64,000 nt of DNA from Reichenbachiella versicolor. GTDB lineage: Bacteria; Bacteroidota; Bacteroidia; Cytophagales; Cyclobacteriaceae. The stretch's first letter is position 1. Every line of letters starts with the position of its first letter. The position numbers and the translations under genes are program-made. The stretch lies in the NCBI RefSeq assembly GCF_003171675.1, contig NZ_QFZQ01000004.1, positions 124,001 to 188,000 of the forward strand. The letters are read 5' to 3'. Of this stretch, positions 6,541-23,355 are shown in pieces. The notes under the pieces were generated by a model. That model made no database searches. It was not told the origin of the DNA and was given only the letters and a program-made list of their open reading frames with translations.

Positions 6541-6855
6541 GCCACACCCTAATCACCCACGGCCACACCCGAATGATCGCCGACCAAGCCCTAACGATCC
6601 ACGACCGCACCCGAATGACTGCCGACCATGCCCTAATGATCCACGTCCACACCCGAATGACTGCCGACCATGCCCTAATGATCCACGACCACACCCTAAT
6701 GACCCACGACCGTGCCCGAATGACTGCCGACCATACCCTAATGACCCACGACCGTGCCCGAATGACTGCCGACCATACCCTAACGATCCACGACCGTGCC
6801 CGAATGACCGCCGACCACTCCCTAACGATCCACGACCATGCCCGAATGACCGCCG
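6541..6855. repeat. Tandem array of fifteen 21-bp repeats in two alternating types
   Basis: Fifteen exact-length 21-bp units run without gaps, followed by a partial sixteenth. The shared core is CCCKAATGAY. Type A units read CCCTAATGATCCACG after their first six bases; type B units read CCCGAATGACTGCCG. Types alternate to make a 42-bp higher-order unit, except that units 7 and 8 (6667-6708) are both type A. The array is roughly 60 percent GC inside AT-rich DNA. Because 21 is a multiple of three, several reading frames stay open on both strands, giving artificial heptad proteins. It fills the whole space between the convergent genes ending at 6533 and 6868. It is too short in period for CRISPR. 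Confidence 0.95.
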
Positions 6856-6867
6856 ACCACGTATGGG

Positions 6868-8838
6868 TCAAATAGTCTCTAAATATTCGTCAAGGCTTAG
6901 ACTTTTTGATAAATCAAACTTCTTTCGGAGTCTGTACCTTCTCGTCTCTACCCCCCTCACAGATAAATTGAGCTGATTAGCCATTTCTTTTGTAGTGAGA
7001 TTTAATTTGATCAGAGAACATAGTTTAGCATCAGAGGGGGATAGTTTAGGATGTTTTTTCTTTAGTTTTTTAAAGAAGTCTGAATGTATGATGTCAAATT
7101 TTTCTTGAAAATGTTGCCAGTCTTTTTGTTTGTCAGTTTGCTGGTCGATGGACATGATGAGTCTACGAATATCATGTGCGGTATTCTCTGAGCTACCGAT
7201 TCTAGCGAGTCTATTTTTAATATCTTCTAACAGTTCATCCTTTTCATTTAGTTTTAGACTGACTGTGGCAAGATCTTGGTCTCGCTTTTCGATTTCCTTT
7301 TTCAAATTAAAATTAATCTGTTTTAGTCGTTCAGGTCTACTCGATTGATTTGGAAGCTCGTAGAGGATTTTTTCAAGGTTGGAATACCAGTAGTTGTAAG
7401 CTTGGTTGCACATCATATAGTTTAGCCGAGGCTCATATATGGCTTTCGGCTTGATACTGCGAAGAGCTTCTTCTAGGTTTTTATATGCTCCACAAGCTAT
7501 ACCAGCACCTCTTGCCGCACCTATGGCTCCATTGGTATCCACTTGTTCCACTTGACAGTCAAGCATAGTCGCTAGTGTCATCGCGAAGACTTCAGATCGA
7601 AACATGTCTTCATTTCCTACCCTGATTATATCAACATCTATATTCATTTCTTTTAAGACATTGACTCCATGTACGAATGAAAAAGCTACTCCCTCTAATG
7701 CAGCCCTGAACACATGGCCTCTTGTATGGCGATTAAAGTCCAGATTGAGAATATGAGAATTAATATTTCTGTCTTCTAATATGCGTTCTGCACCATTTCC
7801 AAAAGGTAGAACACATAAGCCATCTGATCCTACAGGGATCGTAGAAGCTATTCGTTCCATGTCTTCATAGTTACGACCAGAGACGGCAATCTGGTGTTTG
7901 AGCCAATTATATTGTTTGCCAGCACCATTCAAACAGAGTAGTACGCCGATTCCATTCTGTTCTTCATAATTGACATGTGCGAACGAGTTGACCCTGGATT
8001 TGGGGTCGTACTTTGGGGTGTCCACGATTCCGTATACTACTCCAGATTCGGCACTTGATGCAGCGATTTCACCCGGGCGCATGACGTTAAGTGCAAGGGC
8101 GTTGTTGGGCTGGTCGCCAGCCCGATAGGTGAAAGGAGTATTAGGGTGTAAACCTGTTTGATAAGCAGCTTGGTGAGTTAAGTTTCCTTGAATGGAGAAA
8201 GTAGGCTGTAGGTCAGGTACAAGTTCTTTGTCAAGTTCAAAGTAGTTTAAGATCTCTTGCGATACCTTTTGTTTTTGGAAGTCCCATAGTATAGCTTCGG
8301 ATATTCCAGAGACAGTGCTACAGATCTCGCCGGTCATTTTCATAGCTATATAGTCGCCCGGTAGCATGAATTTATAGGTGCGTTCGTAGATGTGAGGTTC
8401 GTTATCCTTGATCCACTTTAGTCGAGAAGTAGTGAAGTTTCCAGGGGAATTGAGCAGGTTTTCCAAACAGAATAGTTCACCCATATCATGAAAAGCCCTT
8501 TTTCCTATGTTTACAGCACGCCCATCACTCCATATGATGGCGGGTCTGAGAGCTTTGTGATCTCTATCGACTAAAACCAGACCATGCATTTGGTAAGTAA
8601 TGCCAATTCCTCCAATGTCTCTAGGTGAGATTTGAGTTTCTTGAATCAAAAGTTTCGTGGCATGACAGAGGTCTTGCCACCACATATCGGGATGCTGCTC
8701 AGCCCAGCCGTGCTGCTTAGAAATAACAGAATAGTCATGTTCAGGATAGCGTAGCGTAGTAATAGTGGTATTGGTAGTTGCATCTAGGAGCGCCACTTTG
8801 ATGCAAGCACTTGAGATCTGATAGCCGAGTAAATACAT
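6868..8838 (-). CDS. Xylulokinase-like (FGGY) pseudokinase fused to coiled coil and LuxR-type HTH; probable xylose-pathway regulator
   Basis: Residues 1-490 align without gaps over at least the first 270 positions with the XylB at 9782. The sugar-site motif QMHG (83-86) and the catalytic-type Asp242 in RAGDQPNNA are kept. Both ATP phosphate-binding motifs are lost: GYDLGSSSVK in XylB is GYQISSACIK here (D7Q, G9S, S11A), and TGGTSG (261-266) is SSAESG. Residues about 500-590 form a charged coiled coil. Residues about 596-656 are a LuxR/GerE-type HTH (LSPSDAKLCSLIKLNLTTKE, then SVRGVETRRYRLRKK) of the kind at the C-terminus of many Bacteroidota regulators. The natural reading is a cytoplasmic transcription factor that binds xylulose or xylose and controls the adjacent operon. 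Residual kinase activity cannot be excluded from sequence. It is divergent from the AraC-type gene. Confidence 0.9.
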   Translation of the reverse strand: MYLLGYQISSACIKVALLDATTNTTITTLRYPEHDYSVISKQHGWAEQHPDMWWQDLCHATKLLIQETQISPRDIGGIGITYQMHGLVLVDRDHKALRPAIIWSDGRAVNIGKRAFHDMGELFCLENLLNSPGNFTTSRLKWIKDNEPHIYERTYKFMLPGDYIAMKMTGEICSTVSGISEAILWDFQKQKVSQEILNYFELDKELVPDLQPTFSIQGNLTHQAAYQTGLHPNTPFTYRAGDQPNNALALNVMRPGEIAASSAESGVVYGIVDTPKYDPKSRVNSFAHVNYEEQNGIGVLLCLNGAGKQYNWLKHQIAVSGRNYEDMERIASTIPVGSDGLCVLPFGNGAERILEDRNINSHILNLDFNRHTRGHVFRAALEGVAFSFVHGVNVLKEMNIDVDIIRVGNEDMFRSEVFAMTLATMLDCQVEQVDTNGAIGAARGAGIACGAYKNLEEALRSIKPKAIYEPRLNYMMCNQAYNYWYSNLEKILYELPNQSSRPERLKQINFNLKKEIEKRDQDLATVSLKLNEKDELLEDIKNRLARIGSSENTAHDIRRLIMSIDQQTDKQKDWQHFQEKFDIIHSDFFKKLKKKHPKLSPSDAKLCSLIKLNLTTKEMANQLNLSVRGVETRRYRLRKKFDLSKSLSLDEYLETI

Positions 8839-8955
8839 ACTTCAAATATACGTCGTTTTTCAACTGTGTGATGATTTCTGTTTTTACTAATACCTACTCA
8901 TTTGAACTGATAAACTTAGCTGAGTTGATCACTTAGGATAAATATTGAGTTGTAT

Positions 8956-9011: not shown

Positions 9012-9617
9012 ATGAAGTTGAAAAATTCACCATTATATATAGCATTCCTTGCGGTACTAGCTGCGACATTGCTGCTTTTTGTTGATGTGATAGCTGGTAC
9101 GTTTGTTATTGCAGATCCTCAAGTGACTAACATAAAAGTTGAAATGGCTGAAAACCACACGACCGAATTGTTTGTCACAATCACTATAGTAGTGTCTGTT
9201 ATCGTTTTCTTCTTGAGAAGGCAGCTAGTTAGGCATCATGATTTTGTAAGAAAAGTAACAGAAGAGAGTTCTAATCAGTTAAGTGTCAATAATTACGCAG
9301 AGCCTTATATCCAAAAGTGTATGATTATTATTAATGCACGATTCAAGGAAGATTTACAACTTGAGGAAGTTGCAAAGGTCTTGAATATCTCAAGTCCGCA
9401 TCTTCAGCAAATGCTTTTTGACCTAACTAACAAATCGTTTGTAGAGCATCTAAATGAGGTGAGGGTAGCATATGCTAAAAAACTATTGATCAAATCTGAT
9501 AAAGAAGTCTCTGAGGTGTCAAAAGCTGTAGGGTATGACAATAAGCATTACTTTATTAGACTCTTTAAGAATGAATATGGTATGTCTCCTGAGAAATTCA
9601 AATCTTCCTACAGTTAA
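9012..9617 (+). CDS. Membrane-anchored AraC-family transcriptional regulator
   Basis: About 201 residues. Two hydrophobic segments (PLYIAFLAVLAATLLLFVDV near the start and VTITIVVSVIVFFLRR near residue 60) enclose a short loop, probably periplasmic. The C-terminal half is an AraC-type DNA-binding domain with two HTHs: LEEVAKVLNISSPHLQQMLF and VSEVSKAVGYDNKHYFIRLF, ending in the usual YGMSPEKFKSS. The gene lies immediately before xylB and divergent from the pseudokinase-HTH gene, so it is a likely regulator of xylose use. There is no cupin-type sugar-binding domain; sensing could occur through the short loop or a partner. The ATG at 9012 is preferred over an in-frame TTG at 8961 that lies inside a promoter-like element. 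Confidence 0.85.
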   Translation: MKLKNSPLYIAFLAVLAATLLLFVDVIAGTFVIADPQVTNIKVEMAENHTTELFVTITIVVSVIVFFLRRQLVRHHDFVRKVTEESSNQLSVNNYAEPYIQKCMIIINARFKEDLQLEEVAKVLNISSPHLQQMLFDLTNKSFVEHLNEVRVAYAKKLLIKSDKEVSEVSKAVGYDNKHYFIRLFKNEYGMSPEKFKSSYS

Positions 9618-9641: not shown

Positions 9642-9698
9642 AATTCAAATTGAATTTACTGACGTAGTATTGAAGTAAAGTGAAGAAATTTTGAAGTA
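9642..9698 (+). promoter_or_regulatory. Candidate operators upstream of xylB
   Basis: Two signals lie in the 164-base gap before xylB. One is a perfect palindrome, AATTCAAATTGAATT (9642-9656). The other is a direct repeat, TTGAAGTA at 9670-9677 and 9691-9698, exactly 21 bases apart, the spacing of AraC-type half-sites on one face of the helix. TTCAAAT and ATTTGAA half-palindromes also occur before the pseudokinase gene (8841-8847, 8900-8906). Assignment to either regulator is inference. Confidence 0.45.
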
Positions 9699-9781
9699 GG
9701 GTATTTCAAGAGTATAATCATTAATCAGTTTCTTTTGCCTTTGTCATCCAACGCTGGAGACAGAAGAATGAAAGAAGAATT

Positions 9782-11263
9782 ATGTATCTACTAGGATATG
9801 ATCTGGGTAGCTCTTCGGTGAAAGCTGCTATTGTGGAGGCTGAGACTGGTAAGTCCATAGCAGTGGAGCAGTATCCCTCACAAGAAATGGAAATTATCTC
9901 TCATGAATTGGGGTGGGCCGAGCAAGAGCCTGACACATGGTGGGAGAATCTCAAAAACGTAACTCAAAATATATTAGCATCTTCTAAGATAGATTCAGCC
10001 TTAATTAAAGGGATCGGAATTTCTTATCAAATGCATGGTCTAGTGGTAGTGGATGAAAATCAAAATTCACTTAGGCCGTCTATTATTTGGTGCGACAGTC
10101 GGGCTGTTGAAATTGGGAATGAGGCTTTTGGACAGATAGGGTCAGAAAAGTGTCTTTCTCACCTTTTGAATTCACCGGGTAATTTTACCGCTTCAAAACT
10201 GAAATGGTTGAAGGACAATGAACAATCTACGTTTCAGAAAATAGACAAGATCATGTTGCCTGGAGACTACATCGCTATGAAGATGACAGGCGAAGTGAAG
10301 ACTACCGTGACTGGATTGTCTGAGGGTATTATGTGGGATTTCAAAGAGGAGAAAATAGCTTCTTTTCTTTTGGATCACTATGGTATCAAGGAGTCAATGA
10401 TTCCAGAAGTGGTAGATGCTGTAGGACATCAGGGGAAATTAACTGCTGAATCTGCTAAATATCTTGGTCTGAACGAAGGAATACCTATTGGCTACAGAGC
10501 TGGAGATCAACCTAATAATGCAATGTCTCTTGGCGTATTGAATCCGGGTGAAGTGGCTGCTACAGGAGGTACGTCAGGTGTGGTGTATGGTGTAGTAGAT
10601 AAGCCAACAGTCGATCCGAAGACTAGAGTAAATTCTTTTGCTCATGTCAATTACACTTCTGATGATGCTAGAGTAGGCGTGTTATTGTGCATCAATGGTT
10701 CAGGGATTCAATATAGCTGGGTCAGACAGATGGTAGCTGAAGAAGGGTTAGATTATCCTGATTTGGAGAAGTTGGCTGCGGAAATTCCCATAGGTTCCGA
10801 TGAGTTAAGAATTATCCCATTTGGAAATGGAGCTGAAAGAGTGCTGGAAAATAAGAATCTGGGAGCACAGATGATCAATCTCCAGTTTAATCGTCACAAG
10901 AAGCCACATATTTATAGAGCTACTCTTGAAGGTATTGCATTTTCTTTCATTTATGGCATGGAAATCATGCAGGATATGGGACTAGATGTGGGAGTTATCA
11001 AGGTAGGTAATGACAACCTTTTTCAGTCAGAGATATTTTCCAAGACTATCGCTACTGTAATAGGTTGTGAGATACAGATGGTGAAGACTACTGGTGCAGT
11101 AGGAGCAGCGAAAGCAGCTGGTGTAGCAGGAGGGCTCTATGACTCATTGGAGCAAGCATTTGCACAAATGGAAACTGTGCAAGTGTATAAAGGAGATGAC
11201 AATGGTGAGCCATACAAGAAGGCTTATCAACTATGGAAACAAGATTTAGAAAAACTTTTATAA
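9782..11263 (+). CDS. xylB: Xylulokinase
   Basis: FGGY-family kinase that phosphorylates D-xylulose to D-xylulose 5-phosphate with ATP in the cytoplasm. It is 493 residues, normal for the family. The first phosphate motif GYDLGSSSVK (5-14) is intact. The substrate motif QMHG is at 83-86, the catalytic Asp242 sits in RAGDQPNNA, and the second phosphate motif GGTSG is at 262-266. The C-terminal actin-like domain has GNGAERVLE and TTGAVGAAKAAG. It is followed by xylA after 18 bases and then the symporter, forming a xylose operon. It is a close paralogue of the HTH-fused protein at 6868-8838, from which it differs mainly in keeping the ATP motifs. Confidence 0.95.
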   Translation: MYLLGYDLGSSSVKAAIVEAETGKSIAVEQYPSQEMEIISHELGWAEQEPDTWWENLKNVTQNILASSKIDSALIKGIGISYQMHGLVVVDENQNSLRPSIIWCDSRAVEIGNEAFGQIGSEKCLSHLLNSPGNFTASKLKWLKDNEQSTFQKIDKIMLPGDYIAMKMTGEVKTTVTGLSEGIMWDFKEEKIASFLLDHYGIKESMIPEVVDAVGHQGKLTAESAKYLGLNEGIPIGYRAGDQPNNAMSLGVLNPGEVAATGGTSGVVYGVVDKPTVDPKTRVNSFAHVNYTSDDARVGVLLCINGSGIQYSWVRQMVAEEGLDYPDLEKLAAEIPIGSDELRIIPFGNGAERVLENKNLGAQMINLQFNRHKKPHIYRATLEGIAFSFIYGMEIMQDMGLDVGVIKVGNDNLFQSEIFSKTIATVIGCEIQMVKTTGAVGAAKAAGVAGGLYDSLEQAFAQMETVQVYKGDDNGEPYKKAYQLWKQDLEKLL

Positions 11264-11281: not shown

Positions 11282-12619
11282 ATGGCTGATTTAAGTGTAG
11301 TTACTGGCGACAAAGAATATTTCAAAGGTATAGATAAGATAAAGTTTGAAGGCAAAGGTTCGGATAACCCAATGGCATTCAAATACTATGACGAGAACCA
11401 AGTGGTAGCAGGCAAAACTATGAAGGAGCACTTCAAGTTTGCTATTGCTTATTGGCATACGTTCTGTGGAACTGGTGGAGACCCATTCGGTCCAGGTACA
11501 AAGGCATTTGAGTGGGATCAAAATGGAGATCCGATTGGAGCGGCTAAAGAGAAAATGGATGCAGCTTTTGAGTTCATTACTAAGATAGGTGCGCCATACT
11601 ACTGTTTTCATGATTTTGATTTGATCGCTGAAGGTTCTTCATTGAAAGAGTCTGGGGAGAGATTGGATATCATTACTGATTACGCTAAAGAGAAGCAGGC
11701 TGCTTCAGGTGTAAAATTGCTATGGGGTACAGCCAATTGTTTTTCAAATCCAAGATATATGAACGGGGCATCTACTAACCCTGATTTCGATATCGTAGCA
11801 TACGCAGGAGCTCAAATTAAAAATGCTCTTGATGCTACTATTAAGCTTGGTGGTGAAAATTATGTATTCTGGGGTGGTAGAGAAGGTTATATGTCTCTTT
11901 TAAATACCAATACTAAAAAGGAACTAGATCATATGGGTAGATTCCTTGGAATGTGTAGAGACTATGCGCGTAAGCAAGGATTCAAAGGTAATTTCTTCAT
12001 AGAACCTAAGCCGGCAGAGCCTTCTAAGCACCAGTATGATTTTGATGCACAGACTGTGATTGGATTTTTGAAAGAGCATGGTTTGGAAAATGATTTCAAA
12101 TTAAATCTTGAAGTGAATCACGCGACTTTAGCACAGCATACATTTACACATGAGCTTCAGATGGCAGTAGATAGTGGAATGCTAGGAAGTATTGACGCGA
12201 ATAGAGGTGATTATCAAAATGGTTGGGACACGGACCAGTTCCCTAATGATATTTTAGAAGTGACTGAAGCAATGATGATTATCCTGCAAGCTGGAGGCTT
12301 CAAAGGTGGAGGTGTCAACTTCGATGCAAAAACTAGAAGAAACTCTACCGATCTAGAGGATATATTCTATGCTCATATCGGTGGTATGGACATTTTTGCG
12401 AGGGCACTATTAACGGCTCAAGATATTTTAGATAACTCTCAATACTTGAATTTAAGAAAGGCCAGATACAGTTCTTTCAATACAATGCAGGGTAAGGAGT
12501 TTGAAGAAGGAAAGCTTGATCTAGAAGCGTTGGCTAAAATAGCTCAAGAAGGAGGCGAGCCAAAGCTAAGAAGTGGTCAGCAGGAATTGTTCGAAAACAT
12601 CATCAATAGCTATATATAG
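11282..12619 (+). CDS. xylA: Xylose isomerase
   Basis: Converts D-xylose to D-xylulose with two divalent metal ions. At 445 residues it belongs to the long (class II) isomerases usual in Bacteroidota. Visible marks are WHTFCGTGGDPFGPGT, the catalytic-base region YYCFHDFD, VFWGGREGY, the metal-ligand Glu in FIEPKPAEPSKHQYDFD, LEVNHATLAQHTFTHEL with metal ligands, and GSIDANRGD. It starts 18 bases after xylB with ATG and is surely co-transcribed with it. A GC-rich intercistronic hairpin follows before the symporter gene and may set the relative expression of the two. Confidence 0.98.
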   Translation: MADLSVVTGDKEYFKGIDKIKFEGKGSDNPMAFKYYDENQVVAGKTMKEHFKFAIAYWHTFCGTGGDPFGPGTKAFEWDQNGDPIGAAKEKMDAAFEFITKIGAPYYCFHDFDLIAEGSSLKESGERLDIITDYAKEKQAASGVKLLWGTANCFSNPRYMNGASTNPDFDIVAYAGAQIKNALDATIKLGGENYVFWGGREGYMSLLNTNTKKELDHMGRFLGMCRDYARKQGFKGNFFIEPKPAEPSKHQYDFDAQTVIGFLKEHGLENDFKLNLEVNHATLAQHTFTHELQMAVDSGMLGSIDANRGDYQNGWDTDQFPNDILEVTEAMMIILQAGGFKGGGVNFDAKTRRNSTDLEDIFYAHIGGMDIFARALLTAQDILDNSQYLNLRKARYSSFNTMQGKEFEEGKLDLEALAKIAQEGGEPKLRSGQQELFENIINSYI

Positions 12620-12693: not shown

Positions 12694-14097
12694 TTGGAAA
12701 ATCAAGGTATTAACAAAGGGTATATCATTTTGATTACCCTAGTAGCTACACTCGGAGGGTTTCTCTTTGGGTTTGATAGTGGAGTAATCAATGGTACAGT
12801 CAAAGGATTGGAATCGGCATTCAATGCACAAAACATCGGAAGTGGGTTCAATGTAGCTTCAATGCTTCTTGGATGTGCTGTAGGTGCTTACTTTGCAGGA
12901 ACATTTGCAGATAAGTATGGTAGAAAGAATATGCTGATCATGTCAGCTGTGTTTTTTATTATTTCGGCTTGGGGTTCAGGAATCGCTACTGCATCACCCG
13001 AATTTATAGTTTATAGAATTATTGGAGGGTTGGCAGTAGGTGCAGCGTCTGTAATGGCGCCGGCATATATTAGTGAAATAGCTCCTGCCGAATACAGAGG
13101 AGCATTAGCTACAGTGCAGCAAGTAGCAATTATTTCAGGTTTGTTTTTCTCATTTCTTAGTAACTACATTTTAGCAGATGTGTCTGGATCAGCAGAGAAT
13201 GTTCTTTGGATGAATTTTGAGACATGGAGGTGGATGTTTTGGATGGAGCTGATGCCTGCAGGAGTATTTTTACTTTCCCTGTTCTTGATTCCTGAAAGTC
13301 CAAGATTCTTGGTAGCCAAACAAAAGAAAGAGGATGCACTTAAAGTATTGCAAAAATTATATGGTGATGGCGAAGGACAAATTAAATTGAATGAAATCGA
13401 TTCTTCTTTAGCGGTAGACCATCATAAGCCAAGTTTAAAAGATTTGTACGATTCCACTCTAGGAAGAGTAAGGCCGATAGTCTGGATAGGCATTGGTTTA
13501 GCAACTTTTCAGCAATTAGTGGGTATTAATGTAGTGTTCTATTATGGAGCAGTTTTATGGCAGGCAGTGGGATTTGGTGAAGGAGATGCATTATTGATCA
13601 ATGTAGTGTCTGGTGCTTTGAGTATAGCTGCTGTAGTAGCGGCATTAGTTCTGATAGATAAGGTAGGAAGAAAGCCTCTTTTAGTTGCAGGGTCTATTGG
13701 TATGGCTATCACACTTACATTAGTAGCCATCGCATTTGCTACAGGTACTTTGGGAGAAGAAGGTAATCTGGAGTTAAGTGAGAGTATGGGAGTTCTTGCA
13801 TTAGTAGCAGCGAATCTCTACGTTATTTGTTTTAACTTTTCTTGGGGTCCTGTGATGTGGGTTATGCTTGGGGAGATGTTTCCTAATCAAATGAGAGGGT
13901 CAGGATTGGCAGTATCTGGATTAGCACAATGGGTTTCTAATTTTGGAATTACTTTAACTTTCCCGATTCTATTAGCAGGTCTTGGTCTAGCCTTTGCCTA
14001 TGGTCTTTATGCTGCTTTCGCAGCGGTATCAGTCTTTTTCGTGATCAAGTATGTCTATGAGACTAAAGGGAAAGAGTTGGAGCAGATGGAAGGGTAA
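12694..14097 (+). CDS. xylE: Sugar/H+ symporter of the major facilitator superfamily, probably for xylose
   Basis: Inner-membrane sugar porter with 12 predicted helices. Marks of the sugar-porter family are GGFLFGFDSGVINGT in helix 1, DKYGRKN after helix 2, RIIGGLAVGAASVMAPAYIS, PESPRFL in the central loop, QQLVGINVVFYYG in helix 7, DKVGRKP, FSWGPVMWVMLGEMFP, and ETKGKELE at the C-terminus. It closes the xylB-xylA operon, so D-xylose is the likely substrate, taken up with protons. The start must be TTG at 12694: a stop codon (12688-12690) lies two codons upstream and no ATG precedes helix 1. A weak start could lower expression of this membrane protein. The gene symbol is by context and family, not certain orthology. 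Confidence 0.88.
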   Translation: MENQGINKGYIILITLVATLGGFLFGFDSGVINGTVKGLESAFNAQNIGSGFNVASMLLGCAVGAYFAGTFADKYGRKNMLIMSAVFFIISAWGSGIATASPEFIVYRIIGGLAVGAASVMAPAYISEIAPAEYRGALATVQQVAIISGLFFSFLSNYILADVSGSAENVLWMNFETWRWMFWMELMPAGVFLLSLFLIPESPRFLVAKQKKEDALKVLQKLYGDGEGQIKLNEIDSSLAVDHHKPSLKDLYDSTLGRVRPIVWIGIGLATFQQLVGINVVFYYGAVLWQAVGFGEGDALLINVVSGALSIAAVVAALVLIDKVGRKPLLVAGSIGMAITLTLVAIAFATGTLGEEGNLELSESMGVLALVAANLYVICFNFSWGPVMWVMLGEMFPNQMRGSGLAVSGLAQWVSNFGITLTFPILLAGLGLAFAYGLYAAFAAVSVFFVIKYVYETKGKELEQMEG

Positions 14098-19489: not shown

Positions 19490-20782
19490 TTAATCAAATA
19501 ATTCGGGTAACCAAAGACTGATTTGTGGAATGTAAGTTACCAGTAGAAGCACTACTATCATTACTATAAAAAGTGGAATTAAAGGCTTCAATACTTTATT
19601 GAGTGAGACATCAGCGATTCCCATTCCTACGAATAGCACAGATCCTACAGGAGGTGTGCACAAGCCAATACAAAGGTTCATGACCATAATTATCCCAAAA
19701 TGTACAGGATTAATACCAATGCTAGTTACCACAGGTAGGAATATGGGGGTGAAGATTAAAACAGCTGGTGTCATGTCCATGAAAATTCCTACACAAAGAA
19801 GTAATACATTGATAAGGAAAAGAATCACGATTGGATTGTCTGATACACTTAGAAGAGCTGACGTTACCGCTTGAGGAATATCAGCATACGCCATAACCCA
19901 TGACATGCTCATAGAGCATGCAATCAATAAAGTAACTATTGAAGTTGTAGTTACCGAGCTTATTGCTATAGTTCTAAGTTTTTCAAAATCTAATTCTTTG
20001 TACACTAATGAAAGAATAAGTGTGTAAAGAACAGCAATTCCCGAAGCTTCAGTAGCAGTAAATACTCCCGCCACTATACCTCCAATTACTACAAAAAGCA
20101 TAAATAAACTAGGAAGCGCATGTACGAATGTGACGATTACGTTTTTAAAGCTTGCTTTTTCCCCTTTTGGGTAATTTTTGATTTTAGCATATATGGCTGC
20201 TACTAGCATCAATGCAAGCCCCATTAATGTACCTGGAAGATACCCTGCCAAGAAAAGAGCTGCAATAGAAACTCCTCCACTTGCTAGAGAGTATACGATT
20301 AGAATGTTTGAAGGAGGGATGACAAGACCAGTAGTAGATGATACAATATTAACTGCAGCACTATACTCCTTTTCATATCCTTCTTTTTCCATGCGTGGAC
20401 CAAGTGTTCCCCCAATAGCTGATACTGCTGCCATCGCAGAGCCTGAAATTGCGCCAAAAAGCATAGCTCCAATGATGTTTACATAAGCAAGACCTCCTGG
20501 AAAAGAACCTACCAAAGCTTTTGCGAAAGCGATGAGTCGTTGAGCTATACCTCCTTGGTTCATGATTTGTCCTGCTAGTACAAAAAATGGTATTGCTAGC
20601 AAACTAAAACTATCTAACCCAGTAGCCATTCGTTGAGCAATGGTTGTAAAAGCAGGCATTGAATCTATGCTGACCAATATCGTACAAAGCGATGCTAGTC
20701 CAACACTATATGCCACAGGTACACCTAATACCAACAAAACAATGAAGCTTGTAATAAGTGTAATGATTTCTAAATGCTCCAT
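19490..20782 (-). CDS. dctM: TRAP transporter large permease
   Basis: 430 residues with about 12 hydrophobic helices. This is the DctM subunit that forms the sodium-coupled transport channel in the inner membrane. Family marks are VLGVPVAYSVGLAS, PFFVLAGQIMNQGGIAQRLI, GAISGSAMAAVSAIGGTLGP with the conserved glycine-serine turn, IPPSNILIVYS, and MDMTPAVLIFTPIFLPV with LCIGLCTPPVGS near the end. The gene starts 2 bases after the dctQ stop and is the last of a five-gene operon ending in a strong terminator. The substrate cannot be read from this subunit. Confidence 0.95.
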   Translation of the reverse strand: MEHLEIITLITSFIVLLVLGVPVAYSVGLASLCTILVSIDSMPAFTTIAQRMATGLDSFSLLAIPFFVLAGQIMNQGGIAQRLIAFAKALVGSFPGGLAYVNIIGAMLFGAISGSAMAAVSAIGGTLGPRMEKEGYEKEYSAAVNIVSSTTGLVIPPSNILIVYSLASGGVSIAALFLAGYLPGTLMGLALMLVAAIYAKIKNYPKGEKASFKNVIVTFVHALPSLFMLFVVIGGIVAGVFTATEASGIAVLYTLILSLVYKELDFEKLRTIAISSVTTTSIVTLLIACSMSMSWVMAYADIPQAVTSALLSVSDNPIVILFLINVLLLCVGIFMDMTPAVLIFTPIFLPVVTSIGINPVHFGIIMVMNLCIGLCTPPVGSVLFVGMGIADVSLNKVLKPLIPLFIVMIVVLLLVTYIPQISLWLPELFD

Positions 20783-20784
20783 GA

Positions 20785-21246
20785 TTAGTCGATGTTTAAA
20801 AGGTCACAAATGGTATAGAAACATATCAAAAAACCGCTAATAGGGAGTGCTAAGTAAACATATCCTATTGGTAAGTGCATAGCGGATGAAGTTTGCCCAA
20901 GATCAAAAGAAACCAAGACCATTCTCGTGCCGCCGACAATGAATGCTAAAATGGAAAAAATTAATATGATAACATGAATTATCTTATTTTGAATAGCTTG
21001 TTGTTCGTTATTAAGTTTTTGTTTAAGTATTTCTATTGCTACATGAGCTTGTTTACCAGAAGCATAAGCAGCGCCAAGAAGACCAATCCAAACTAATAGA
21101 TATCTTGCTAATTCATCCGTGAAAATGCTAGGGTTACTTAATAGATATCTAGAAGCTACTTGCCAAAGTACATTAAGTACCATTATGCCAAGAAGTATGC
21201 TTAGTGCAATTTCTAGTGCTTTGTCTATTTTATTTCTTAGAGTCAT
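20785..21246 (-). CDS. dctQ: TRAP transporter small permease
   Basis: 153 residues with four membrane helices (LEIALSILLGIMVLNVLWQV, YLLVWIGLLGAAYA, VIILIFSILAFIVGGTRMVL, IGYVYLALPISGFLICFYT). This is the DctQ subunit that docks DctM and is required for TRAP transport. The marks RYLL, FTDELARYLLVWIGLLGAA and MHLPIGYVYLALP are typical. It overlaps the end of the substrate-binding gene by 17 bases and is followed by dctM after 2 bases, so the three subunits are made together. Confidence 0.93.
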   Translation of the reverse strand: MTLRNKIDKALEIALSILLGIMVLNVLWQVASRYLLSNPSIFTDELARYLLVWIGLLGAAYASGKQAHVAIEILKQKLNNEQQAIQNKIIHVIILIFSILAFIVGGTRMVLVSFDLGQTSSAMHLPIGYVYLALPISGFLICFYTICDLLNID

Positions 21247-22264
21247 TTGTAGTTGTTTTTGATGAGGAGAGTCCTGTCGCTTGTATTTGTTGGATTAGTT
21301 CGTATACTTTCGGTTGGTCTTTGTATTTGTTGTACAGGTTTTGAACCTTACCTTGGAATAGAGTCTTGTCAGGGTAGCTTACTTGTACACCTGCTTTTTT
21401 TACAGCCTCTAGACTTTCAAGAACAGAGTTATACCATACTGCTTTTTGATATTCTACAGAGCGGTCAGCAGCTTCTTGAAGCCATTCTTTTTCTTGATTT
21501 GTCAGGTTATTCCAAGTATAAGTGCCTACTATCAGTACATCAGGTAGTGACATATGCTCGTCAATAGAATAATACTTGCATACCTCATAGTGTCTAGAAG
21601 TGAAAAAGCTAGGAGGATTGTTTTCAGCAGCATCTACCACTCCCTGTTGTAGCGCAGTATAAAGTTCACCAAATGAAACTGGGGTAGGAGAGCCGCCAAG
21701 AGCATTAACCATGTCAAAAGAAGATTGACTATTCATGACTCTAATTTTCTTGCCTTTTAGATCTTCAGGAGTTGTAAAAGGTTTTTCTTTAGAGTAGAAG
21801 CTCCTACTACCAGCGTCGTAGAAGCACAATCCCCTAAGTCTGTAATCACTTCCCTTTTCAAGTAGTTGCTTACCTACTCCTCCTTGTAAGACTTGCCAAG
21901 CATGAGCCGAATCTCGGAAAATATAAGGCAGTGCCAACACACTGATTTCTGGAACAAAGTTCTCAAGAGCACCTGCTGATACTTTGGTCATATCCATGCT
22001 GCCGATTTGTAGTAACTCCAATAAATCTCTTTCCTGTCCTAATTGTCCATTACTGTATATATCAATGGTCATCTGACCATTAGATATTTCCTCAAGTAGT
22101 CTGGCCATTTCAAGGATACCAAGATGGACGGGGTGTTGATCATTTAGTCCATGAGCTAGTTTTAAGGTTTTGACCTTATCGGTACGTTGGCAAGAAATTA
22201 ATCCTATGCACAGTACGACTAGTACTTGAATAGACAATCGCCATTTAGTAGTCATCATTATCAT
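21230..22264 (-). CDS. dctP: TRAP transporter substrate-binding lipoprotein
   Basis: 344 residues. It is the periplasmic ligand receptor of the TRAP system. Here it has a lipoprotein signal (lipobox LISC near residue 25), so it is tethered rather than free in the periplasm. Family marks are LKLAHGLNDQHPVHLG at the mature N-terminus, IYSNGQLGQERDLLELLQIG, KGKKIRVMNSQSSFDMVNALGG with the Arg that usually binds the carboxylate, PTPVSFGELYTALQQGVVDAAENN, and the final helical region. The Arg implies an organic acid ligand; sugar acids such as uronates are the usual ones in carbohydrate-degrading Bacteroidota, which is inference. ATGs at the first, third and fourth codons are all possible starts. 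Confidence 0.92.
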   Translation of the reverse strand: MIMMTTKWRLSIQVLVVLCIGLISCQRTDKVKTLKLAHGLNDQHPVHLGILEMARLLEEISNGQMTIDIYSNGQLGQERDLLELLQIGSMDMTKVSAGALENFVPEISVLALPYIFRDSAHAWQVLQGGVGKQLLEKGSDYRLRGLCFYDAGSRSFYSKEKPFTTPEDLKGKKIRVMNSQSSFDMVNALGGSPTPVSFGELYTALQQGVVDAAENNPPSFFTSRHYEVCKYYSIDEHMSLPDVLIVGTYTWNNLTNQEKEWLQEAADRSVEYQKAVWYNSVLESLEAVKKAGVQVSYPDKTLFQGKVQNLYNKYKDQPKVYELIQQIQATGLSSSKTTTNDSKK

Positions 22265-22638: not shown

Positions 22639-23355
22639 TTATCTAAAACTGTGATTTGTATTTGACTGAAAATTCGGGTTCAATTTGAATAAAGTTGGAG
22701 CGCCTTGAACGCCTTTTCTTTTTTCCTTAGTTTCTAGTACCATGTTTAGACTGTTGACTTTTCTTCTGAAGTTCCTTCTGTCTAGGGTCTCGTCTAGTAA
22801 TATTTCATATAAACCCTGCAATTCTGTTAAAGTGAATTTTTCAGGAAGTAAATGGAATCCAATCTTGGAAAAACTTACTGCTTGCTTGAGCATATTTCTA
22901 GCATCCTGTAATACTTCCAAGTGATCAAAGCCAAGCTCATTAATATCACTAAAGTCCACCCATTTAGCATCCGATATATAATTTTTTGGTCTCATTTCTA
23001 ACCATTCAGGTTTGACCAAGGCATAATATCCAGATGTAATTGCTCGTTTAATCGGGTGACGTCTGACGTTGCTATAAGTCTTTACTTGCTTTATGTATAC
23101 TTCTGAAGATAGTCCAAGTAATTTATCAAGAACTGTACTAACTGCTTCTTCTAGATTTTGCCCTTCTTGCATTATTCCTCCTGGTAGCAGCCAGTGCCCT
23201 TTGAATGGTTCAATATCTCTTTGGACTAAAAGTACTTTAAGGCCCTTTTGAGTGAAACCAAAAATGGCGACATCTGCTGTATGGGAACATTCATAGGCAT
23301 CTATGGAGACAGTGGTATCCCAATTCACTTGTCTACTGGTTGGTTTTTGTTCCAT
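22639..23355 (-). CDS. Nudix-type transcriptional regulator (NrtR-like)
   Basis: 238 residues. Residues about 25-155 are a Nudix fold (VAIFGFTQKGLKVLLVQR, HWLLPGGIMQEG). The Nudix box is degenerate: the REUXEEXGU half reads TVLDKLLGL, so the catalytic glutamates are gone and hydrolysis is unlikely. The C-terminal part (LTELQGLYEILLDETLDRRNFRRKV) is the winged helix of NrtR-type regulators. In Bacteroidota such proteins include AraR-type regulators of sugar catabolism. As the first gene of an operon with a TRAP transporter, it probably controls that operon in response to a sugar, sugar acid or nucleotide-sugar derivative. The ligand is unknown. Confidence 0.9.
   Translation of the reverse strand: MEQKPTSRQVNWDTTVSIDAYECSHTADVAIFGFTQKGLKVLLVQRDIEPFKGHWLLPGGIMQEGQNLEEAVSTVLDKLLGLSSEVYIKQVKTYSNVRRHPIKRAITSGYYALVKPEWLEMRPKNYISDAKWVDFSDINELGFDHLEVLQDARNMLKQAVSFSKIGFHLLPEKFTLTELQGLYEILLDETLDRRNFRRKVNSLNMVLETKEKRKGVQGAPTLFKLNPNFQSNTNHSFR

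Follow-up and report, generated by a model that had tools for sequence, protein, structure and literature searches.

Regulators of sugar genes that derive from enzymes are already known, namely the ROK proteins and the Nudix-type AraR and XylR. ROK stands for Repressor, ORF, Kinase; its members, such as Bacillus XylR and E. coli Mlc, belong to the same actin/hexokinase-like superfamily as the sugar kinases and carry their helix-turn-helix (HTH) at the N-terminus. How repressors and kinases are related within ROK is mentioned in a passage of PMC555942. In Bacteroides, XylR BT0791 is placed within the NrtR family in a passage of PMC3878776, and AraR is described in part of PMC4666351 as having an impaired Nudix motif and binding L-arabinose. 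For a Vibrio homologue of E. coli-type XylR, an excerpt of PMC12125979 gives a motif with two direct repeats.

We analysed a 64,000-nucleotide stretch of Reichenbachiella versicolor DNA (the window), in which a gene neighbouring xylB encodes an FGGY kinase domain fused to a coiled coil and a LuxR-like HTH. Comparison across genomes suggests that the product is probably a one-component regulator derived from an FGGY kinase, which would bind tandem sites, sense a pentose, and control the xylose genes together with its own gene. Like the ROK proteins, it would be a sugar-kinase relative turned sugar-sensing HTH transcription factor. However, it belongs to another family, that of FGGY kinases, its coiled coil and LuxR-like HTH are C-terminal, and the fusion family still includes members with intact kinase motifs. 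No ROK domain was matched in the window protein by Pfam up to an E value of 0.1, and the HTH is C-terminal, not N-terminal. The Bacteroides XylR and AraR, as far as these passages describe them, are, as the fusion is predicted to be, regulators that descend from enzymes and act on pentose operons of Bacteroidota, but consist of a Nudix fold and a winged HTH, unrelated to FGGY. E. coli-type XylR also regulates xylose genes, as the fusion is predicted to do, whereas its LacI-like sensor and AraC HTH are unrelated folds. The Bacteroidota coiled-coil-HTH regulators of the BT3442 type share with the fusion a homologous C-terminal module of ~150 residues; by contrast, the sensor of the fusion would be a kinase domain, and its putative recognition helix differs. 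XylB has the whole FGGY fold, the sugar motif, and the base Asp in common with the window protein, which adds the coiled coil and HTH and lacks the phosphate motifs. The initial annotation of this DNA knew of no characterised FGGY-HTH regulator, and none was found described in open-access PMC full texts, a scope with subscription journals mostly outside it. If our reading is right, the fusions form a transcription-factor family on the FGGY kinase fold that arose separately from the ROK regulators, and they would explain pentose control in those Bacteroidota that seemingly use the fusion where Bacteroides uses a Nudix-type XylR.

Architecture of the window protein and its neighbourhood

The fusion gene, its domains and motifs, and the adjacent xylose genes are as follows.

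6868..8838, minus strand: FGGY-HTH fusion gene for a 656-aa protein, a probable regulator of xylose genes
7360..8838, minus strand: FGGY (xylulokinase-like) domain, residues 1-493; BLASTP, Pfam, model, and PDB matches
8803..8820, minus strand: degenerate phosphate-1 motif QISSAC, residues 7-12; XylB counterpart DLGSSS
8581..8592, minus strand: sugar-site motif QMHG, retained, residues 83-86; alignment with XylB
8113..8115, minus strand: Asp242 (GDQP motif), retained; alignment with XylB
8044..8055, minus strand: degenerate phosphate-2 motif SAES, residues 262-265; XylB counterpart GGTS
7054..7359, minus strand: linker and long helical (coiled-coil) segment, residues 494-595; alignment and model
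6871..7053, minus strand: LuxR/sigma-r4-like HTH, residues 596-656; sub-cut-off Pfam scores, own-genome matches, and model
9782..11263, plus strand: xylB, xylulokinase with intact motifs; likely target operon
11282..12619, plus strand: xylA, xylose isomerase (TIGR02630, 675 bits versus a cut-off of 533); likely target operon
12694..14097, plus strand: XylE-like sugar porter (TIGR00879 above cut-off; Pfam Sugar_tr); likely target operon

The best match of the porter was the XylE model, under that model's cut-off. The fusion gene is a single intact ORF with an ATG start in the ORF list of the window. By BLASTP, its product was identical to the neighbouring XylB (9782-11263) at 240 of 493 positions (49%), with a single one-residue gap near residue 296, in agreement with the gapless alignment through residue 270 described in the initial annotation. 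The other residue-level observations made there were all seen in the alignment as well: the substitutions D7Q, G9S, and S11A, to which S12C can be added, the change of GGTS to SAES at 262-265, and the retention of QMHG and of Asp242, whose position we take to be that of the catalytic base in FGGY kinases. Both phosphate motifs required of a functional xylulokinase (D-x-G-[ST] and GTSG) are thus missing in the window protein (QISSAC and SAESG). Pfam assigned FGGY_N (9.8e-47, 160 bits versus a cut-off of 28.8) and FGGY_C (2.2e-8, 34.6 bits versus 27). The protein scored 280.8 bits against the NCBIfam XylB equivalog cut-off of 380.25, which does not discriminate here because the intact neighbouring XylB also fell under it (308.5 bits).

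The window HTH remained under the Pfam cut-offs (Sigma70_r4_2, 16.9 versus 25.7 bits; GerE, 13.7 versus 23.5 bits). Residues ~500-656 have counterparts at the C-termini of 14 further proteins encoded in this genome (E ≤ 1.5e-15; 2.4e-24 for the best match), and the C-terminus matched the end of the NCBIfam "BT3442 family" with an E value of 5e-6 (25.5 bits versus a cut-off of 940). An AlphaFold model (mean pLDDT 73.8) showed an FGGY fold, long helices at residues 498-546 and 552-595, and further helices at 601-611, 616-623, and 627-640; pLDDT was <50 across much of the modelled coiled coil, and of the 8 rows of the input alignment the first alone covered the HTH. The top PDB matches of the model were FGGY kinases, for xylulose first and then gluconate and glycerol (2itm_B, TMt 0.88). 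The own-genome matches and the modelled helices agree with the earlier description of a coiled coil followed by an HTH.

Distribution, ancestry, and motif states of the fusions

Whole-genome searches yielded 19 full-length FGGY-HTH fusions. The window protein was the query in 146 whole genomes; a 9-row alignment then served for 390 sampled genomes of the window's GTDB family, 17 of which carried a full-length fusion. Carriers of the same genus were the window's genome, G001, G002, G003, G005, and G007, with G004 and G006 lacking the fusion; the others of the family were G009, G014, G043, G078, G176, G213, G309, G310, G326, G337, and G348. Another family of the same class had the fusion in two of 13 genomes, G839, which surfaced in the 395-genome class sample, and G1355. 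Beyond these 19, no further fusion was found among 291 order, 395 class, and 395 phylum genomes (overlapping samples) at strict E cut-offs of 1e-190, 1e-205, and 1e-205 with the best 3-4 candidates per genome scored, a setting that divergent fusions could escape. A separate genome-contig search returned six loci, all XylB-like and each with the HTH absent. Because the architecture recurs in 19 genomes, it is not due to chance.

An IQ-TREE phylogeny built from 71 FGGY domains placed the 19 fusions and a gene of G343 in one clade (support 100/100) among Bacteroidota XylBs, with the branching of the XylB lineages around the clade left without resolution. The simplest reading would be a single origin of the fusion in Bacteroidota. 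The initial annotation had derived the gene from a duplication of the adjacent xylB; the tree instead indicates that the window fusion belongs to an older paralogous clade common to two bacterial families and is not a recent duplicate. The fusion-clade FGGY gene of G343 (L090:8571-10100, minus strand) has its HTH core deleted, with a short C-terminal remnant readable at the 3′ end.

The fusion lay within 15 kb of xylB in 12 of the 19 genomes (window, G005, G003, G043, G078, G176, G213, G309, G310, G326, G337, and G1355), the distance being 14 kb in G003. In G213, G310, G326, G337, and G1355, xylB-xylA is directly downstream of the fusion, and in G043 a GH43 gene lies between fusion and xylB. 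The G839 fusion is surrounded by GH10, GH3, SusC-like, and SusD genes, in what appears to be a xylan-type locus. Six of the 19 fusions were unlinked to xylB (G001, G002, G007, G009, G014, and G348, with 67 kb in the last); the flanks of these showed no obvious xylose theme, with neighbours of the EamA, DUF748, PEP-utilising, amidohydrolase, and HAD families (one each in G001, G007, G002, G014, and G348).

D-x-G-S and GTSG were both intact in 13 of the 19 fusions. Both motifs were lost in five (window, G001, G003, G005, and G007), with E or Q for the Asp and AESG for GTSG, and the G1355 fusion (L109:8930-10927, minus strand) was partly degraded, separately and differently (DIGNAN, DTSG). Among the rows without an HTH, G343 included, 51 of 52 had both motifs, and the 52nd (G348) is truncated at the N-terminus. 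GDQP was retained in all 19 fusions and QMHG in 15; G337, G326, G310, and G213 (the fusion genes of L083, L084, L085, and L087) have QMHS, which may point to a different ligand. At position 408, in a later loop that is presumably adenosine-binding, four fusions have T and two have S where most XylBs have G, yet this stretch is variable among XylBs. The proposal that loss of the phosphate motifs made the regulator does not agree with the 13 motif-intact fusions. As to the architecture search suggested earlier, the expected linkage to xylose genes proved frequent (12 of 19 near xylB and one in a xylan locus), while motif loss was found in five of 19; of the two observations named there as adverse, relatives with intact ATP motifs were found and a lack of linkage to xylose genes was not.

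Because most fusions retain both motifs, the fusion preceded motif loss. G002, which is motif-intact, branches first among the fusions of the window's genus (99/95); a single loss of the motifs within the genus, after fusion, is therefore the simplest account. Since kinase versions with intact and with degenerate motifs exist side by side, one can test whether fusion came first, then regulation, and loss of catalysis last. The same motif states bear on whether the fusions are trigger enzymes, that is, active second xylulokinases as well as regulators, with residual kinase activity in the window protein. This is in line with the 13 intact members and with the base Asp and sugar motif of the window protein, but five fusions, including that of the window, lack both phosphate motifs, and a separate xylB is present in 18 of the 19 fusion genomes, where a second kinase seems unneeded; we regard the proposal as doubtful. 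Both motifs were visible in 17 of these xylBs, that of G348 being cut at a contig end, and the xylB of G839 was not located in a search with a strict cut-off only.

The motif-less FGGY domains are under purifying selection with strong constraint. Between G003 and G007, dN was 0.019 and dS 1.12, and between G001 and G003, 0.066 and 2.90, respectively; dS was saturated in every pair with the window's copy. The dN/dS of about 0.02 in these two pairs, the open ORFs in 19 genomes, and the retained sugar motif and HTH make it highly improbable that the window gene is a degenerating pseudogene, a decaying xylB copy with a captured HTH, although its branch is long (0.42 versus 0.03-0.21 in five congeners) and the G343 gene has lost its HTH core.

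The predicted operator at fusion and xylB promoters

TGACGTA repeats were first spotted by eye upstream of the fusion and xylB in ten fusion genomes. The operator predicted from them, TGRCGTA-N4-TGRMGTA (pattern TGRCGTANNNNTGRMGTA), consists of direct repeats with an 11-bp pitch, and it offers a direct experimental handle. Its sites in the window are as follows.

8838..8855, minus strand: operator before the fusion gene, CGACGTA-TATT-TGAAGTA, 1 mismatch
9660..9677, plus strand: operator before xylB, TGACGTA-GTAT-TGAAGTA, 0 mismatches
9681..9698, plus strand: next pair in the array before xylB, 2 mismatches, at the same pitch of roughly 11 bp

The site of the fusion gene overlaps the start codon by one base, the A of ATG, and the xylB array spans 9660-9699; an array of about four units is often found before xylB. 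Five matches with at most two mismatches were observed in the window versus 0.96 expected.

The first, strict pattern (TGACGTANNNTTGRMGTA, 350 bp upstream, threshold at least 14 of 15) was found before 16 of 19 fusions and, in the fusion genomes, before 11 of 18 xylBs. None of 34 xylB-type genes from genomes lacking an intact fusion had it; among these, the decayed fusion gene of G343 scored 13 and G205 scored 12. Of the 18 fusion-genome xylBs, 14 scored at least 13. Once these counts were known, position 3 was loosened from A to R, position 11 was left free, and the upstream stretch was extended from 350 to 450 bp plus the start codon. At a threshold of at least 13 of 14, this relaxed pattern was found upstream of 17 of 19 fusions and 13 of 18 fusion-genome xylBs, but of none of the 33 xylBs of genomes without a fusion (best score 11; G343 excluded), which rules out a general feature of xylB promoters. 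Shuffled sequences reached 13 in 0.1% of 2100 cases. Fisher's test gave p = 1.8e-8, a descriptive value only, as the genomes are related and the counts non-independent. With the relaxed pattern, no operator was found before the fusion genes of G839 and G1355, the latter genome having one before xylB. The xylB upstream regions under the threshold were those of G002, G005, and G176 (score 12) and G213 (score 11), and the G348 xylB is at a contig end. In the nine fusion genomes outside the by-eye set, the strict pattern was present at 7/9 fusions and 4/8 xylBs, and the relaxed pattern at 7/9 and 6/8.

Sister contrasts on the xylB tree were concordant (G002/G061, G043/G205, and G014/G039, with G009+G176/G068 at weaker support), the xylB sites of G002 and G176 being weak. 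Furthermore, the operator was present at the fusion's own promoter even where xylB is far away (G001, G007, G002, G009, and G014). According to the initial annotation, a xylulokinase-derived protein would regulate the xyl genes; in line with this, both intervals proposed there for DNA binding contain the predicted operator, which tracks the fusion across genomes. A degenerate operator was also seen upstream of the fusion-clade gene of G343.

Genome-wide, there were 32 exact matches in 28 genomes, compared with 2 for the reversed pattern. Fourteen lay before a fusion, 11 beside xylB (either strand), one at the 3′ end of the G839 fusion, upstream of a susC-like gene in the xylan locus, and six elsewhere. 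At least one exact match was present in 17 of 19 genomes with a fusion and in none of nine without an intact one; G213 and G348 had one-mismatch sites and no exact match. The contexts of the six outlying matches speak against clear regulon members: two in G043 are just 3′ of two IS110 transposase copies, three are in coding sequence (G309, G326, and G014, where a susC-like ORF lies 0.5 kb away), and one in G839 is between two ORFs. In the window's own 5.25-Mb genome, sites with at most one mismatch occurred at four places, two of which are the promoters described here, 0.8 kb apart; the other two are both within ORFs and were rejected as regulon members. The reversed control gave 7 places versus 4. 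Across the genome, sites with one mismatch therefore carry no significance by themselves, and the argument depends on where the sites lie and on their conservation.

The operator centre resembles TAnnTTTG, which we take to be the Bacteroidota -7 box, a likeness that would suit a repressor. No -33 element at a consistent spacing upstream of this part was found in 17 fusion promoters, and repression by promoter overlap therefore stays weak.

Candidate binders and proposed mode of action

A conserved operator before both the target genes and its own gene is what a one-component sugar regulator would show, and this arrangement was found here; binding by the fusion is predicted. In the alignment, the HTH stretch RGVETRRYRLRKK hardly varied across the fusions, with slight differences in G839 and a few others, and was unlike that of six of the 14 matching paralogs of the same genome, as expected if all fusions read one operator. 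LuxR-like HTHs often use inverted repeats, and the direct repeats seen here were counted against the fusion as the binder.

Two other types of regulator were considered. An AraC-type gene lies between the fusion and xylB (9012-9617, plus strand; 201 aa); it was rejected as the operator's binder, since a relative at E ≤ 1e-25 was present in none of 27 other genomes. By eye, its product has two hydrophobic, membrane-like stretches before the HTH. An NrtR-type gene (Nudix plus winged helix; 22639-23355, minus strand) lies 11 kb from the window xylB, where it adjoins the TRAP-transporter genes DctM and DctP (19490-22264), and a second xyl regulator in the window is thus possible. Of 28 genomes, 25 had NrtR-type genes, and these were unrelated to the presence of the operator, occurring both where it was found and where it was not. 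In three fusion-less genomes, such a gene is beside xylB: it is divergent in G068, and G205 and G247 share the order xylB-xylA-transketolase-NrtR. G043 has the fusion plus an NrtR gene beyond the xyl operon. At the xyl locus of several genomes, the fusion may have taken over what an NrtR-type XylR does elsewhere.

A different regulator could bind the operator, with the fusion as co-regulator or co-inherited passenger. The link between operator and fusion is a correlation, the survey of other regulators was non-exhaustive, and NrtR-type genes are found near the xyl operons of the window and G043. However, the operator is present at the fusion's own promoter in the five genomes where xylB is distant, all 33 xylB promoters without a fusion lack it, the AraC-type gene is not conserved, and the NrtR genes occur irrespective of it. 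These results make a different binder quite unlikely and argue for the fusion.

In the one-component mechanism that we favour, the xylulokinase domain would act as the sensor of a protein that binds tandem TGACGTA-type half-sites before xylBAE and its own gene. The ligand would be a pentose in the retained sugar pocket, most likely D-xylulose, since the sugar motif is kept and xylulose is the product of XylA, or else xylose. Ligand binding would shift the cleft between the FGGY lobes, and closure of this cleft would be relayed through the coiled coil to change how the HTHs pair and bind DNA. With several direct repeats per site, dimers or tetramers may bind cooperatively, and repression relieved by sugar is slightly favoured as the sign of control. 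The motif-intact majority may be bifunctional kinase-regulators, and motif loss in part of the genus would have produced a dedicated sensor. Extending this, we tentatively suggest, with somewhat less than even confidence, that the family preserves successive stages of a change from kinase to regulator, that DNA binding by the motif-intact members follows the catalytic cycle (flux sensing) and that part of the genus and, separately, G1355 lost ATP binding to become pure xylulose sensors, displacing an NrtR-type XylR.

Directly downstream of the fusion gene, positions 6542-6860 hold a tandem repeat of 15 copies in a 21-bp register (consensus CCACACCCTAATGACCCACGA), with open frames on both strands.
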